A DNA stretch of 14,519 nucleotides. It comes from Candidatus Tectimicrobiota bacterium (GTDB lineage: Bacteria > JACPSX01). Where the stretch lies: contig JACPSX010000008.1 of the NCBI GenBank assembly GCA_016193065.1, forward strand, positions 1 through 14,519, given 5' to 3'. Made by a program: the position numbers and the translations under genes. The notes under the pieces are model-generated. The model searched no databases. It was not told the DNA's origin and saw nothing but the letters and a program-made list of their open reading frames with translations. This document shows positions 1,278-14,519 of the stretch, in pieces (positions within the stretch are counted from its first letter, which is position 1; each line of letters starts with the position of its first letter).

Positions 1278-1583
1278 GTGGAGAAACCGTTCCAGTATCA
1301 ATTCGAGTGGGACCCCGTCAAAGCCCGGCAGAATGTGAAAAAGCACGGGGTCACTTTTGAACGTGCGGCCACGATCTTTCTTGACCCCCAGACCCTGTCA
1401 GAGTTTGATGAGGAGTATGGTCAAGAGGAAGATTGGTGGGTTACTCTTGGATTGGACCGTACGGGGACCTTGTTGGTCGTCTGTCACACCTATCGTGAAG
1501 TTACGGCAACCAGTGCATGGATTCGGATTATCTCGGCGCGCAAAGCGACGAGGAACGAAGCCAAGCAGTATACGAGGAAATGA
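1278..1583 (+). CDS. brnT: BrnT-family toxin (type II toxin-antitoxin)
   Basis: 101 residues, normal length for the family. BrnT is a RelE-fold ribonuclease held in check by its partner encoded just downstream. Diagnostic features are FEWDPVKARQNVKKHGVTF (residues 9-27), the LDP turn at 35-37, and the C-terminal IRIISARKATRNEAKQY (82-98), whose basic residues belong to the active-site face in characterised members. Translation starts at GTG 1278; the nearby ATGs at 1270 and 1276 are out of frame. The stop is three bases before the antitoxin ATG, so the two are co-transcribed toxin-first, as usual for brnTA. No sign of decay: the frame is open and both motifs are present. BrnTA operons are usually autoregulated; no clear operator palindrome is seen at the promoter. 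Confidence 0.92.
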   Translation: MEKPFQYQFEWDPVKARQNVKKHGVTFERAATIFLDPQTLSEFDEEYGQEEDWWVTLGLDRTGTLLVVCHTYREVTATSAWIRIISARKATRNEAKQYTRK

Positions 1584-3169: not shown

Positions 3170-3592
3170 ATGGTAGGGAAGCTCTTTAACCCCAACGCGC
3201 CCAAAAAATCCACCAACTTGAGCGTCAACAGCGATCTTCTCCGGCAAGCCAGGGAGAACCGCATCAACCTGTCGCAAACCCTTGAACAGCGCCTTGCAGA
3301 ACTGTTGCTGGAAGAGAAGCGGCGGAGATGGCGGGAAGAAAATCGAGAAGCAATTGAAGCCTACAACCAGCGAATCGGGACACGTGGCGTATTCAGCGAC
3401 GGGTTGAGGCGTTTCTGGTGGCACAGTTCGATGTCTACGGAAATCCGAACAAGGAGACGAACCGGGCGATTCGACCATCCAACCGCGCGCCGGCGTGCTC
3501 TGAAGGGCGCTGACAACTTGCCGGCGGAAAGGCTGCCGAAGCGGCCCAGCGCCGGTGAACTGTCAAAAGAAGAGGTTCACGTCTCCAGATGA
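3170..3592 (+). CDS. ccdA: CcdA antitoxin with run-on tail (ccdA stop lost)
   Basis: Residues 1-82 are a complete CcdA: the N-terminal ribbon-helix-helix part with NLSVNSDLLRQARENRINLS (residues 16-35) binds DNA, and the C-terminal helix ending GVFSDGLRRF (73-82) is the usual toxin-binding tail. Family members normally stop right there, with the stop overlapping the ccdB start as TGATGG. Here the sequence is TGGTGG, so codon 83 (3416-3418) is Trp and the frame runs on for about 58 low-complexity, Arg-rich residues to a TGA at 3590-3592 that overlaps the next ATG. AAGGAG lies six bases before the ATG. It may still bind the palindrome at 3137-3159 or a CcdB from elsewhere in the genome; the tail is probably not functional. 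Confidence 0.85.
   Translation: MVGKLFNPNAPKKSTNLSVNSDLLRQARENRINLSQTLEQRLAELLLEEKRRRWREENREAIEAYNQRIGTRGVFSDGLRRFWWHSSMSTEIRTRRRTGRFDHPTARRRALKGADNLPAERLPKRPSAGELSKEEVHVSR
3418..3513 (+). pseudogene. ccdB: Truncated ccdB toxin (5' end only)
   Basis: From GTG 3418 the frame reads VAQFDVYGNPNKETNRAI, the CcdB N-terminus (normally M-A-Q-F-D-V-Y). It should continue with a PYLLDVQ-like strand but switches to unrelated sequence and stops at 3511-3513 after 31 codons. CcdB is a gyrase poison of about 100 residues whose C-terminal helix contacts GyrA, so this stub cannot be toxic. The junction is near 3471. The start codon GTG is explained by the same base change that removed the ccdA stop. Confidence 0.82.
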
Positions 3593-4464: not shown

Positions 4465-4493
4465 GCCCTGCTCCCTTGGGTCACCTATGAGGC

Positions 4494-4576
4494 CCCCGGT
4501 TGTCGAGGGCGGAAAACTCCGTTGACGAAAGACTCTTCACCACAGAGGCGACATCGCTTGCAGAAGTGATTCCGCT
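4494..4576. repeat. Dispersed repeat B, copy 1
   Basis: 83 nt aligning without gaps to 6368-6450, with nine mismatches by eye. Shared blocks include GGGCGGAAAACTCCGTTGAC and GAAGTGATTC. No convincing coding frame. Confidence 0.85.
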
Positions 4577-6338: not shown

Positions 6339-6367
6339 TCTGACGCCTTACACCTGTGAGATCAGAT

Positions 6368-6450
6368 CCCCGGTTGTCAAGGGCGGAAAACTCCGTTGAC
6401 GAAAAACTCTTCGCCACCGCGACGACGTCGCTTGCGGAAGTGATTCTGCT
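6368..6450. repeat. Dispersed repeat B, copy 2
   Basis: Gap-free match to 4494-4576, 83 nt with about nine mismatches, same orientation. It starts 30 bases after the stop of the Cys-rich gene. Confidence 0.85.
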
Positions 6451-6502: not shown

Positions 6503-6529
6503 TTCGTGGTTCGACAAGCTGACCACGAA
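6503..6529. repeat. Hairpin repeat H2, core reversed
   Basis: Arms TTCGTGG and CCACGAA identical to H1 (1011-1037); the core TTCGACAAGCTGA is the reverse complement of the H1 core with one mismatch. H2 is thus H1 with its core inverted. Confidence 0.85.
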
Positions 6530-6560
6530 CGGTCAAGCAACAATGGATTCAATGCCTGCT

Positions 6561-6593
6561 CTGTTCGGCCTGAGCTCGTCGAAGGCCGAACAG
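6561..6593. repeat. Hairpin repeat H3, same core, different stem
   Basis: Perfect 10-bp arms CTGTTCGGCC and GGCCGAACAG flank the core TGAGCTCGTCGAA, one base different from H1. The next bases are GAGGTTTTT, so it could also act as a plus-strand terminator, although no gene ends just upstream. Confidence 0.85.
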
Positions 6594-10941: not shown

Positions 10942-11328
10942 TTAGGACGGAGCCTCCGGGCTGGCTTTTCTGGCCTGAGCTTTGGCCCGGTTTTCGGCAA
11001 TTGTCTTGCGCAGCTCATCCATATCGAGCCAGGCAAGCCGTTCGACCACCTTACCTCTGACCAAGTGCTGTTCGATGATCTCAGGTACGTCCTCCACCGT
11101 CACCCCGGAATACCACGTGCCGTCCGGATGAACGACCAAGTTGGGACCGTGGCCGCAGGTTCCCAGTGAGCCGCAAGGGGTCACGTGAATTTCCTCTTGC
11201 AGTTTGCGGGCCCGGACCTCGGCGCGGAATTTTTCCAGCACCGCTTCCGATCCCCGGGCGGCGCAGCAACCGTCATCATCGGGCTTGCGGTTGGTGCAAA
11301 CGAAAACGTGGTGGCGGAACGGCAGCAT
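10942..11328 (-). CDS. Thioredoxin-like 2Fe-2S ferredoxin
   Basis: 128 residues. ATG 11328 (MLPFRHHVFVC) is preceded by AAAGGAG, so the longer frame to 11364 is not used. The fold is the one-cluster thioredoxin-like ferredoxin: HVFVCTN with C11, C21/C22, then TPCGSLGTCGHGP with C52 and C58, followed by the family block NLVVHPDGTWYSGVTVEDVP. Most relatives have a C-L-G-x-C pair; here the first Cys is displaced and the spacing is C-x5-C, which may alter the cluster or use C21/C22 differently. It probably carries single electrons for the nearby molybdenum enzyme. The C-terminal 30 residues are charged and helical. A near-consensus FNR-type site lies upstream. Confidence 0.87.
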   Translation of the reverse strand: MLPFRHHVFVCTNRKPDDDGCCAARGSEAVLEKFRAEVRARKLQEEIHVTPCGSLGTCGHGPNLVVHPDGTWYSGVTVEDVPEIIEQHLVRGKVVERLAWLDMDELRKTIAENRAKAQARKASPEAPS

Positions 11329-11366: not shown

Positions 11367-11411
11367 TTTTAACTGACTTCCAATAGTCCCGTCTATGATC
11401 TGGATCATAGA
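11367..11411 (-). promoter_or_regulatory. FNR/CRP-type operator with -10 box for the ferredoxin gene
   Basis: TCTATGATC-TG-GATCATAGA (11392-11411) is a perfect inverted repeat with 9-bp arms. Its core ATGAT-CTGG-ATCAT differs from the FNR consensus TTGAT-N4-ATCAA at one position per half. On the minus strand a -10-like TTAAAA lies at 11372-11367, its centre 32 bases from the centre of the palindrome, the spacing of class II FNR/CRP-activated promoters. The palindrome also lies 25 bases before the divergent plus-strand gene. Confidence 0.6.
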
Positions 11412-11435: not shown

Positions 11436-11738
11436 ATGAAAAATTACGACGAGGTCATGCGAGCTGTCGGCCGGACTCTTAATCGTCTGCAGATTTCGGC
11501 CAGGGTCTGTGTGGGCTGGTCTGCAACCCCTCAGGGGTACGCCGTGAGCTTGAAACAGGGGTACCGGGAAGCCAGCAAGGTGATCCCCGTGCAGGAAATC
11601 GACGCATACTTTCAGGAAGGAGCCGGATCCGGCCGCCTGGAGGGCCTTGTCCGGTCCCTCCATTCCCAAGTCGCTTCTTCTCCGCATTACTTGCGGGAGA
11701 CCATCTACAAGGACCCTGCCGGCCGCCGCTACCTGTGA
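11436..11738 (+). CDS. Conserved-looking hypothetical protein, divergent from the ferredoxin
   Basis: 100 residues with balanced, protein-like composition; not recognised. It opens MKNYDEVMRAVGRTLNRLQI (helix), then ARVCVGWSATPQGYAVSL (two strands), VIPVQEIDAYFQEG (strand-helix), RLEGLVRSLHSQV (helix) and the tail RETIYKDPAGRRYL. No signal peptide, metal motif or membrane segment. AAGGG directly abuts the ATG, too close for an ideal ribosome site, so the start is uncertain. It shares the 107-bp intergenic region and the palindrome at 11392-11411 with the ferredoxin gene and may be co-regulated. The antisense frame (11340-11891) looks like a shadow. Confidence 0.6.
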   Translation: MKNYDEVMRAVGRTLNRLQISARVCVGWSATPQGYAVSLKQGYREASKVIPVQEIDAYFQEGAGSGRLEGLVRSLHSQVASSPHYLRETIYKDPAGRRYL

Positions 11739-11817: not shown

Positions 11818-12180
11818 TCAGGAAGAGAGCCTGCTGCGGCTCCGGCGGCGGAAAGCCGGATACAGGTTCTTGATGTTGGCGAGGATGGCAATCAGAGCTC
11901 CGATGACAGCGAGAACCGGGTGCAGGGTTGACGGATTTTCCTGAATGGATCCGGACAGCCCCGTGCCGAGAACGGTGATTAAAAAGAATGTGGCTAGAAA
12001 GTTGATCCCTCCCCCCCACAAGAGATGGGCTCCAATGGAAACAATTCCGGCTACAAATCCCAGGTTGGTGTGAAGGTCCAGGGACCCTCTACCTGAAGAT
12101 GCGACGAAACCGGCCACGGAGGCGGTGAGGAGGAGGATCAGCGCAAGGCTGCTTAGGATCATGCCGACTTGCTTCTGCAT
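11818..12180 (-). CDS. Small four-helix membrane protein with three His, possible redox anchor
   Basis: 120 residues from ATG 12180; a TTG at 12219 would add 13 residues and neither has a good ribosome site. Four membrane helices: MILSSLALILLLTASVAGFV, LGFVAGIVSIGAHLLWG, FLATFFLITVLGTGLSG and LAVIGALIAILANI. Histidines H37 (start of helix 2), H52 (end of helix 2) and H87 (start of helix 4) are placed as in heme-b membrane cytochromes. It lies between the Fe-S subunit and the ferredoxin, where a NrfD/DmsC-type anchor of eight or more helices would be expected. It may dock the molybdenum enzyme to quinone (inference). The C-terminus is Arg/Ser-rich and cytoplasmic by the positive-inside rule. 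No family name recognised. Confidence 0.72.
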   Translation of the reverse strand: MQKQVGMILSSLALILLLTASVAGFVASSGRGSLDLHTNLGFVAGIVSIGAHLLWGGGINFLATFFLITVLGTGLSGSIQENPSTLHPVLAVIGALIAILANIKNLYPAFRRRSRSRLSS

Positions 12181-12281
12181 GGGAAGCCAATATACTCCGA
12201 TCCGCGGCAGGATCGCCAATGAGAATATCCGGAGAATTGGCTGCCATGTGCTCGCTTCTCCTCCTATAGCGATCCATCCCC

Positions 12282-12887
12282 CTACGGGGGTAAGTAGTAA
12301 ACCGAGGGATTGGTACCCAGCTCCGGGTGCAGGGGAGTCCCGCCGCGCTCCCGGATCAGGCGGGAGACCTCGCTGTCCGGATCCTCAAGATCCCCAAAGG
12401 TGCGGGCCCGCGCCGCACAGTTGGCCACACAGGCCGGATCGAGCCCCTCCGTGACTCGGTGCAGGCAGAAGTTGCACTTCATGACCACCCCGGTGTTCTG
12501 ATCCTGGTAGCGGTGCTCCTCATAGGGGGTGTAGCCCTGCCCCGGAAAATAACCCCGGTGATCCTCGTTGTAGTAGCGGGCCCCGTACGGGCAGGCCATC
12601 ATGCAGGCCCGGCAGCCCACGCACTTCTCCGGGTCAATATCCACAATCCCCCCCTCCCGCTGGTGGCTGGCCCCCGTGGGGCACACGTGGACGCAGGGCG
12701 GATCCTGGCAGTGAAAACACAACAAGGGCAGGAAGAGCAGCCGGGTGTTCGGGTAGGTGCCCATCTCCTGCTTCTGGACCCGGGCAAAGAACACCCCCGG
12801 CGGGGTGCCGTGCTCGGCCTTGCAGCTCAACTGGCAGCCGTAGCAGCCCACGCACCTCCTCAGATCAATGACCATCCCGTATCTCAT
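12282..12887 (-). CDS. Four-cluster Fe-S subunit of a molybdopterin oxidoreductase
   Basis: 201 residues from ATG 12887 (MRYGMVIDLRRCVGC), overlapping the stop of the catalytic subunit gene as ATGA; an in-frame start at 12911 is less likely. Four Cys clusters are complete: CVGCYGCQLSC, CFHCQDPPCVHVCP, CVGCRACMMACP and CNFCLHRVTEGLDPACVANC. This is the DmsB/PsrB/NrfC layout, carrying electrons from the Mo site through four [4Fe-4S] clusters to a membrane partner. The YYNEDHRGYFPGQGYTPYEE insert between clusters 3 and 4 is reminiscent of subunits of phenylacetyl-CoA or polysulfide/thiosulfate-type enzymes, but the substrate is unresolved. A CCCCCTACGGGGG palindrome spans its stop codon. Confidence 0.93.
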   Translation of the reverse strand: MRYGMVIDLRRCVGCYGCQLSCKAEHGTPPGVFFARVQKQEMGTYPNTRLLFLPLLCFHCQDPPCVHVCPTGASHQREGGIVDIDPEKCVGCRACMMACPYGARYYNEDHRGYFPGQGYTPYEEHRYQDQNTGVVMKCNFCLHRVTEGLDPACVANCAARARTFGDLEDPDSEVSRLIRERGGTPLHPELGTNPSVYYLPP

Positions 12888-14519
12888 CGGTAGACCCTCA
12901 CTTTCACGCACAGGTCCAGGTTCAGATCCACGGGGCTGGAGTGCTCAAAGTCCACCTCCAAGAGATCGTTGAAGAACACCCCCTTGCCCTGCGCCACTGG
13001 CAGGCGATGGCTCCAGTGTCCCGCACAGGCGCCGATGCCCAGCCCCTCGGGGTGGATCGCCTCCGTGAGGTGCACCTTGCCCCGCACCTTGCGTTCGCTC
13101 TCCGACTCCACCCAGACCAGCTCCCCGTCCCTGAGCCCCTTCTTCTGTCCTGTGCTCTTGTTGATGGCGATGGTGTAGGAGAAGGGGTCGATGCGGGCCG
13201 CCTCGTCCAGCCAGGGGTTCTCCATCGTAAAACTGTTCGTGTGCAGCGTGTCCCGGTAGTAGAATCCGTAGAGATCATACCGGGAATCATGGCACTCGTG
13301 GGATGGGCAGGGCTTCCAGTCGGGCAGCGGGTCGTAGTAGGAGTCGTCCCATTCCATGCCGTGGGCCCGGGCAATGGCCCCGGCCTTCTCCCCCAGGGGT
13401 TTCAAAAACTCCCAGTAGATGGGGATGCGCACGGGAACCTCATAGCGCCAGTAGACCTCCTCGGGCTTCTTCTTCCACGAGATCAGCCCTTCCTTCTTAA
13501 ACCACTCCAGGCCCCGCTCTTCCCCGAAGTTGTTCCTGAGCTCCCGGTCGCAAACTTCCTCGTAGCTGTACTTCTTTTGAAACTCCAGACGGTAGGGCCC
13601 TTCCAGCTTGAGGTGGGCGTTGAAGGCGGCGTTGATCTCCTCCCGGATGCCGATGCGGTCGGCGAGGTCGAGGAGTGCATCGCCGGCGATCCTCCTCTGA
13701 CCATTCGCGGGCAGGACGGGCTGCTTGATGGGCCAGCACCACTCTCCCATCCCCGCGTGCAGGTTGAAGATGAAGGAGTTCGGCCGGGAGTCCAGAGACT
13801 CCAGGTAAGAGGCGTCGGGCAAAATGATGTCGGCGAACTCGGTGAACTCGTTCTGGAAAATATCAATCGACACGATGAAGGGGATCTTGAGCAGGGAGTC
13901 GATGACCGTGTCCTTGTTCCCCACGCTCATCACGGAGTTGGCCCCGTAGTTGAGCAACATCTCAGGGCGGTAGGGGAGCTGGAAGCGCTGCCACATCTCC
14001 TCCTGGTCCCGGGAGGCCATGAAGGGGGACATCATCCCCATGGGGAAGATATCCTGGAGCCCCATGGTCTCGGGCATCTTCGGCTCGGACAGGGGGTAAG
14101 GCAGGTGGGGAACCATCCAGGTGCCGGTGATCATAAGTCCGTCCGGGCATGGCTTAGGGACATAGTTAGGTCTTCCAGTCTCCGGGTGTCCGTGGCACAC
14201 TGGGTTGAACCCCAGCGCCGCCCCCACCACGTCCGCCGCCCCTACCAGGTGATTTAAAAGCCCGATGGCCAAACAGTTGTAGACCGAGTTCTTGTGCCCT
14301 TGAGACCCGCGGAAGTAAATTGCCGCCACCGGCCGGTAGGGAAATGTCTTCCCCTCGATCACGATCGTGCTCCCCACCCGGGCCTCGGTGGCAAACTCGC
14401 GAGCCATCTCCCGAATCGTCTTCTCGGGCACCGTGGTGATTTCCGTGGCCCAGCGGGGCGTGAACTGCTTCAAATGCTCCCGCACCAGAGCAAAAGCCGG
14501 CCGGCAGGAGACCCCGTTT
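12884..14519 (-). CDS. Molybdopterin oxidoreductase catalytic subunit (DMSO reductase family), N-terminus off-window
   Basis: About 545 residues visible, in frame to the window edge (SCRPAFALVREHLKQFTP) and ending KVRVYR before a TGA that overlaps the Fe-S gene. Visible family features: the Rossmann-like cofactor domain (IYFRGSQGHKNSVYNCLAIG, then NHLVGAADVVGAALG), LLNYGANSVMSVGNKDTV, the FTEFADIILPDASYLESLD block with the ADI(I/V)LP motif, and the C-terminal beta-barrel domain (SYTIAINKSTGQKKGLRDGE, then GKVHLTEAIHPEGLGIGACA) that closes over the pterin. The N-terminal [4Fe-4S] and Mo-ligand regions are outside the window, so the substrate cannot be assigned; thiosulfate/polysulfide reductase, phenylacetyl-CoA oxidoreductase or a hydroxylating enzyme are possible. 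Long plus-strand frames over it are shadows. Confidence 0.9.
   Translation of the reverse strand, partial: NGVSCRPAFALVREHLKQFTPRWATEITTVPEKTIREMAREFATEARVGSTIVIEGKTFPYRPVAAIYFRGSQGHKNSVYNCLAIGLLNHLVGAADVVGAALGFNPVCHGHPETGRPNYVPKPCPDGLMITGTWMVPHLPYPLSEPKMPETMGLQDIFPMGMMSPFMASRDQEEMWQRFQLPYRPEMLLNYGANSVMSVGNKDTVIDSLLKIPFIVSIDIFQNEFTEFADIILPDASYLESLDSRPNSFIFNLHAGMGEWCWPIKQPVLPANGQRRIAGDALLDLADRIGIREEINAAFNAHLKLEGPYRLEFQKKYSYEEVCDRELRNNFGEERGLEWFKKEGLISWKKKPEEVYWRYEVPVRIPIYWEFLKPLGEKAGAIARAHGMEWDDSYYDPLPDWKPCPSHECHDSRYDLYGFYYRDTLHTNSFTMENPWLDEAARIDPFSYTIAINKSTGQKKGLRDGELVWVESESERKVRGKVHLTEAIHPEGLGIGACAGHWSHRLPVAQGKGVFFNDLLEVDFEHSSPVDLNLDLCVKVRVYR

Follow-up and report, generated by a model that had tools for sequence, protein, structure and literature searches.

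Does a small membrane protein with three histidines serve a molybdoenzyme in the place usually taken by NrfD, or is it only encoded there? The locus lies in a window (the whole stretch of 14,519 nucleotides analysed here) that is an entire contig, C292, of a draft genome from a Candidatus Tectimicrobiota bacterium (2.9 Mb, 294 contigs, 86% complete). The gene order that the initial annotation had read, catalytic subunit, Fe-S subunit, 120-aa membrane protein and 2Fe-2S ferredoxin, is seen in the sequence on the minus strand, and beyond the ferredoxin the same strand encodes a sulfonate-type ABC transporter and an isochorismatase-like hydrolase. The left half of the contig is interspersed with REP-like inverted elements and includes a 90-nt repeat at 87% identity (repeat and REP-like coordinates 1003-1037, 6503-6537, 6569-6584, 4487-4576 and 6361-6450). 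It also holds a BrnT toxin gene, a DUF433-DUF5615 pair and a CcdA-like antitoxin (window 1278-1580, 2230-2849 and 3170-3589), a cluster of toxin-antitoxin type within 2.5 kb.

The catalytic gene (12884..14518, minus strand) is cut by the contig end, leaving the C-terminal 544 aa of a Mo-bisPGD subunit in the window and the N-terminal ~320 aa, with FS0 and the Mo ligand, beyond it. PF00384 scores above its cutoff, which places the protein among the CISM molybdopterin oxidoreductases, and PF01568 falls slightly under its cutoff on the truncated protein (25.5 bits against 26.8). An ATGA overlap joins the catalytic stop codon to the start of the Fe-S gene (12282..12887, minus strand), and both genes are intact where visible. 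The Fe-S protein has 16 Cys in four groups of four, as in the four-cluster [4Fe-4S] ferredoxins of CISM enzymes, and matches Fer4_11 among family profiles; its nearest solved structures are PsrB/NrfC of Thermus (2vpw_B, the best) and ArrB (6cz7_B), with 4v4c_B also matched. DsrO was rejected as its identity despite 201 bits against a cutoff of 200, as neither the gene context nor the catalytic partner agrees with that assignment. Full-length catalytic relatives are without a twin-arginine (Tat) signal, which argues that members of the family are probably cytoplasmic, and the window enzyme, judged by these relatives, probably lacks the signal as well. A molybdopterin oxidoreductase fragment at the end of another contig of the same genome (L074, C6:2-1453, minus strand) does bear a Tat signal (SRRDFLQLSALAALG), in contrast to this cytoplasmic family.

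Scanning 85,000 species genomes yielded 44 related catalytic loci at 55-70% identity to the window enzyme, distributed over Rokubacteria, Betaproteobacteria including Aromatoleum, Rhodospirillaceae, Acidobacteria, Deltaproteobacteria and Archaeoglobi. These enzymes form a CISM family without a curated name: the window subunit scores far below every curated family cutoff, and the top NCBIfam model, PhsA, is far below its cutoff for a full-length relative too. At every outside locus where the Fe-S gene comes in tandem after the catalytic gene and sufficient sequence remains beyond it, an NrfD-type gene is directly next (20 of 20 loci). Other arrangements occur, with Fe-S and NrfD genes as converging neighbours in two Acidobacteria loci (L021, L045) or upstream of the catalytic gene in four loci (L032, L039, L041, L049), while ten catalytic loci have neither an adjoining Fe-S nor an adjoining NrfD gene. 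L034 and nine other loci are such solitary catalytic genes; because they are scattered across the tree, unlinking appears to have been recurrent. One solitary copy, in Aromatoleum toluclasticum, lies ~23 kb from a complete operon, which suggests shared partner subunits.

Measured against the 20 outside tandem loci, the initial annotation was right that NrfD is missing from its usual downstream place: among the known CISM anchors (NrfD, DmsC, heme b), no NrfD type lies downstream in the window, and the upstream side is past the contig end. The genome itself encodes five catalytic-FeS pairs, three with NrfD (on C20, C149 and C255) and two without, at the window and at C84 (L072, C84:1546-4707), where no membrane gene is predicted nearby. 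With a Rokubacteria PadD-like query, good matches in this genome were confined to C20 and C149, and C65 gave a partial match; thus, the assembled part holds no unpaired PadD-like NrfD. The tree leaves the exact branch position of the window enzyme unsettled, but NrfD accompanies its nearest relatives, from Rokubacteria (69%), which makes loss or separation at the window the simplest reading.

We therefore favour, at somewhat better than even confidence, an alpha-beta enzyme whose NrfD has been lost or is shared, with the small membrane protein (P0001) independent of it. The catalytic and Fe-S subunits would constitute a cytoplasmic molybdoenzyme of the uncurated family, elsewhere encoded with NrfD, at a locus where the linked gene was lost or became separated. 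Electrons would pass from the Mo site through FS0 to the four [4Fe-4S] clusters and from there either to a PadD-like NrfD encoded with the C20 or C149 paralogue or to a diffusible carrier, as in soluble alpha-beta enzymes. P0001 would be a separate, rare small membrane protein, putatively a minimal b-type cytochrome, encoded downstream by chance. The lost or shared NrfD is supported by the linkage in all 20 outside loci, the NrfD-less C84 pair and the recurrent unlinking, and the independence of P0001 by its unlinked relatives, its absence from the 44 loci and a drop in GC, all detailed below. Against the loss stand a contig that ends inside the catalytic gene and a genome 86% complete, such that NrfD could lie upstream; against an independent P0001 stand its strand and its place, which is NrfD's, 102 bp beyond the end of the Fe-S gene.

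Several known systems come close to this enzyme. NrfD/PsrC-linked enzymes of the PsrABC/PhsABC type share its Mo-bisPGD catalytic and four-cluster Fe-S subunits, but the window locus is without an NrfD gene, and its relatives are probably cytoplasmic rather than exported. The soluble alpha-beta enzymes ArrAB and pyrogallol-phloroglucinol transhydroxylase likewise pair a catalytic with a four-cluster subunit and have no membrane subunit, whereas the sequence relatives of the window enzyme are NrfD-linked. A further comparison is PadBCD, phenylacetyl-CoA:acceptor oxidoreductase, a Mo/Fe-S enzyme with a membrane subunit in aromatic degraders such as Aromatoleum. PadB was set aside as a name for the enzyme, since the sequence sets searched included no PadB reference, and no phenylglyoxylate dehydrogenase was seen adjoining the Aromatoleum catalytic copies. 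Among the related loci (L010-L053), 23 of 44 have a MoaD/ThiS-like gene, and a UbiD-type decarboxylase is found at seven of them and beside the genome's own C20 paralogue. These neighbours hint at substrates that are aromatic or recalcitrant organic compounds of another kind, and the loci look like an expanded, unnamed module of an aromatic-acid or similar pathway.

P0001 itself (11818..12180, minus strand) is, as first described, a 120-aa protein with four hydrophobic segments and histidines at positions 37, 52 and 87. A homologue, P0006, from a Rokubacteria-phylum genome (35% identity over 97 residues, E 1.9e-11) and codon scores that favour its reading frame show that it is a real coding gene, although the start is uncertain: the strongest Shine-Dalgarno/ATG combination (12247) belongs to a different frame, and the Shine-Dalgarno of the ATG at 12180 is weak. 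No significant match to P0001 was found in Pfam, NCBIfam or PDB sequences. Nor did searches return anything for P0001 in the genome_contigs set, for the P0001/P0006 alignment in viral contigs, or for P0006 and P0007 in plasmids; among 95 Rokubacteria-phylum genomes, the P0006 query matched only its own. Weak P0001 matches were seen at L054-L058 (E 0.004-0.06), and weak genome matches to NuoN (L077) and MotA (L080) were dropped as hydrophobic look-alikes. With four helices in place of the eight to ten of NrfD/PsrC and a profile score of about 1 bit, P0001 is not an NrfD fragment. Its single-sequence structure model is of low confidence (pLDDT 63, pTM 0.34), and a fold search with that model gave no useful match.

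Both P0001 and P0006 consist of two similar hairpins in tandem, the alignment of the P0001 halves being equalled in 8 of 1,000 shuffles. Two-helix proteins from a third genome, P0007 and P0008, align ungapped to these hairpins with the same H-X14-H; on this common spacing and alignment we tentatively regard P0001 and P0007 as kin, although in the same search a MotA match scored about equal to P0007. Five of the six hairpins have both histidines, 15 residues apart. The exception is in P0001, where Asn102 occupies the fourth position; H37, H52 and H87 are all kept in P0006, which has a histidine at the Asn102 position. The histidines noticed at the outset are thus conserved in one clear homologue, in a pattern that fits heme b. 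A diheme core has H-X13/14-H on two helices: P0006 has it on both, and P0001 has H37-X14-H52 on helix 2 and H87...N102 on helix 4. The hairpin proteins are a rare, unnamed family, and their H-X14-H pattern suggests a minimal b-type cytochrome. In cytochrome b the heme-ligating helices are B and D, which the helix-2/helix-4 placement in P0001 matches. With four short helices, the second and fourth of which are the sites of histidine pairs spaced ~15 residues apart, P0001 resembles the cytochrome b/b6 core of helices A-D, from which it differs in its Asn fourth ligand, a putative rather than known heme and the lack of a match to solved structures or Pfam. It is far smaller than the heme-b subunits NarI and FdnI and is similar in its minimal size to CytbX, a designed minimal diheme bundle (PMC10120048).

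An alternative interpretation is that P0001 replaced NrfD, acting as a minimal b-type cytochrome anchor, comparable to the heme-b subunits NarI or FdnI, that receives electrons from the Fe-S subunit and delivers them to the quinone pool. Its four helices, the three histidines kept in P0006 and the identical H-X14-H spacing in all five two-histidine hairpins are consistent with this, as is its position: it starts 102 bp past the Fe-S stop codon on the same strand, exactly where NrfD usually lies, and a crude scan found no terminator or promoter-like site between the two genes. We nevertheless consider the replacement unlikely, because the relatives of P0001 do not adjoin Mo enzymes. Judging by neighbouring genes, whose sequences were named by eye, P0006 is surrounded by ABC-transporter, Tim44-like and transposase genes, and P0007 and P0008 adjoin PqqC-like and citrate-synthase-like genes. 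Conversely, no P0001 relative occurs at any of the 44 catalytic loci, and the 33 searched genomes with such loci gave no convincing match, the one partial match having 29% identity over 59 residues (E 0.004). The sister unit on C84 lacks both NrfD and P0001. The topology also speaks against it. By the positive-inside rule, with the Arg-rich C-terminus inside, H37 and H87 would face the periplasmic side and H52 and N102 the cytoplasmic side; because the enzyme is expected in the cytoplasm and the inner pair, His/His in P0006, is broken in P0001, the protein would present no full ligand pair on the enzyme's side.

These observations do not bear out the initial proposal of P0001 as the membrane partner of the enzyme. 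Among the findings named there as telling against a partnership were homologues that lie apart from Mo enzymes and lack the histidines; the relatives do lie apart, but the histidines are kept. The case for P0001 and the enzyme working together is weak: position and strand favour joint function, and almost everything else is against it or neutral. A combined interpretation, in which P0001 founds a minimal b-type cytochrome family of H-X14-H hairpins, one in P0007 and P0008 and two fused in P0001 and P0006, and one member took over NrfD's role here, seems rather improbable to us.

A contig misjoin or a recent rearrangement just after the Fe-S stop codon, with the true NrfD on another or a missing contig, would likewise explain the locus. 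At the border between the Fe-S gene and P0001, GC falls from about 0.65 to 0.55 and codon usage shifts with it, the draft is fragmented, and NrfD is there in every outside tandem relative. We think this explanation quite unlikely, however, because no repeat lies at the border, the assembly's two clear PadD-like genes belong to the C20 and C149 pairs with none left over, and C84 is independently without NrfD.

The ferredoxin gene (10942..11328, minus strand) begins 489 bp past the P0001 stop codon. Its product has the CX(9-12)C...CX(3-5)C pattern and thioredoxin-like domain of [2Fe-2S] ferredoxins of this type, with both profiles matched below their curated cutoffs (NF041612, 85.5 bits against 150, E 3e-24; PF01257, 22.9 against 24.8, E 9e-5). 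Between it and P0001 lies a 100-aa ORF on the plus strand (11436..11738) that has no family match; its codon score, 0.185 per codon, is close to those of accepted genes. The gap between this divergent ORF and the ferredoxin gene holds a near-exact 18-bp palindrome with FNR/CRP-like half sites (CTATGATC-TG-GATCATAG, 11393..11410), found once with 0 expected in shuffles. Since the ORF and the palindrome intervene, the ferredoxin is probably its own unit; it does follow the membrane protein as first read, but the distance, the opposite ORF and the palindrome argue against a common transcription unit. That a soluble complex reduces or oxidises this ferredoxin, as its adjacency had suggested, is very improbable: the gene is near and on the same strand and both proteins are expected to be cytoplasmic, but it appears to be separately transcribed and no ferredoxin of this type occurs at any related catalytic locus.

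Under the preferred reading of a lost or shared NrfD beside an independent P0001, the recurrent unlinking of NrfD in an expanded family raises the question of whether a single quinone-binding subunit serves several paralogous catalytic pairs. Should P0001 bind heme and serve the molybdoenzyme after all, the CISM superfamily would gain an anchor of a new type. What deserves most attention in these results is the family of hairpin proteins. A heme-binding P0001 would rank with the smallest membrane cytochromes in nature, as a natural parallel to the designed CytbX, and its duplicated hairpin would show how the four-helix core of cytochrome b may have originated by fusion.
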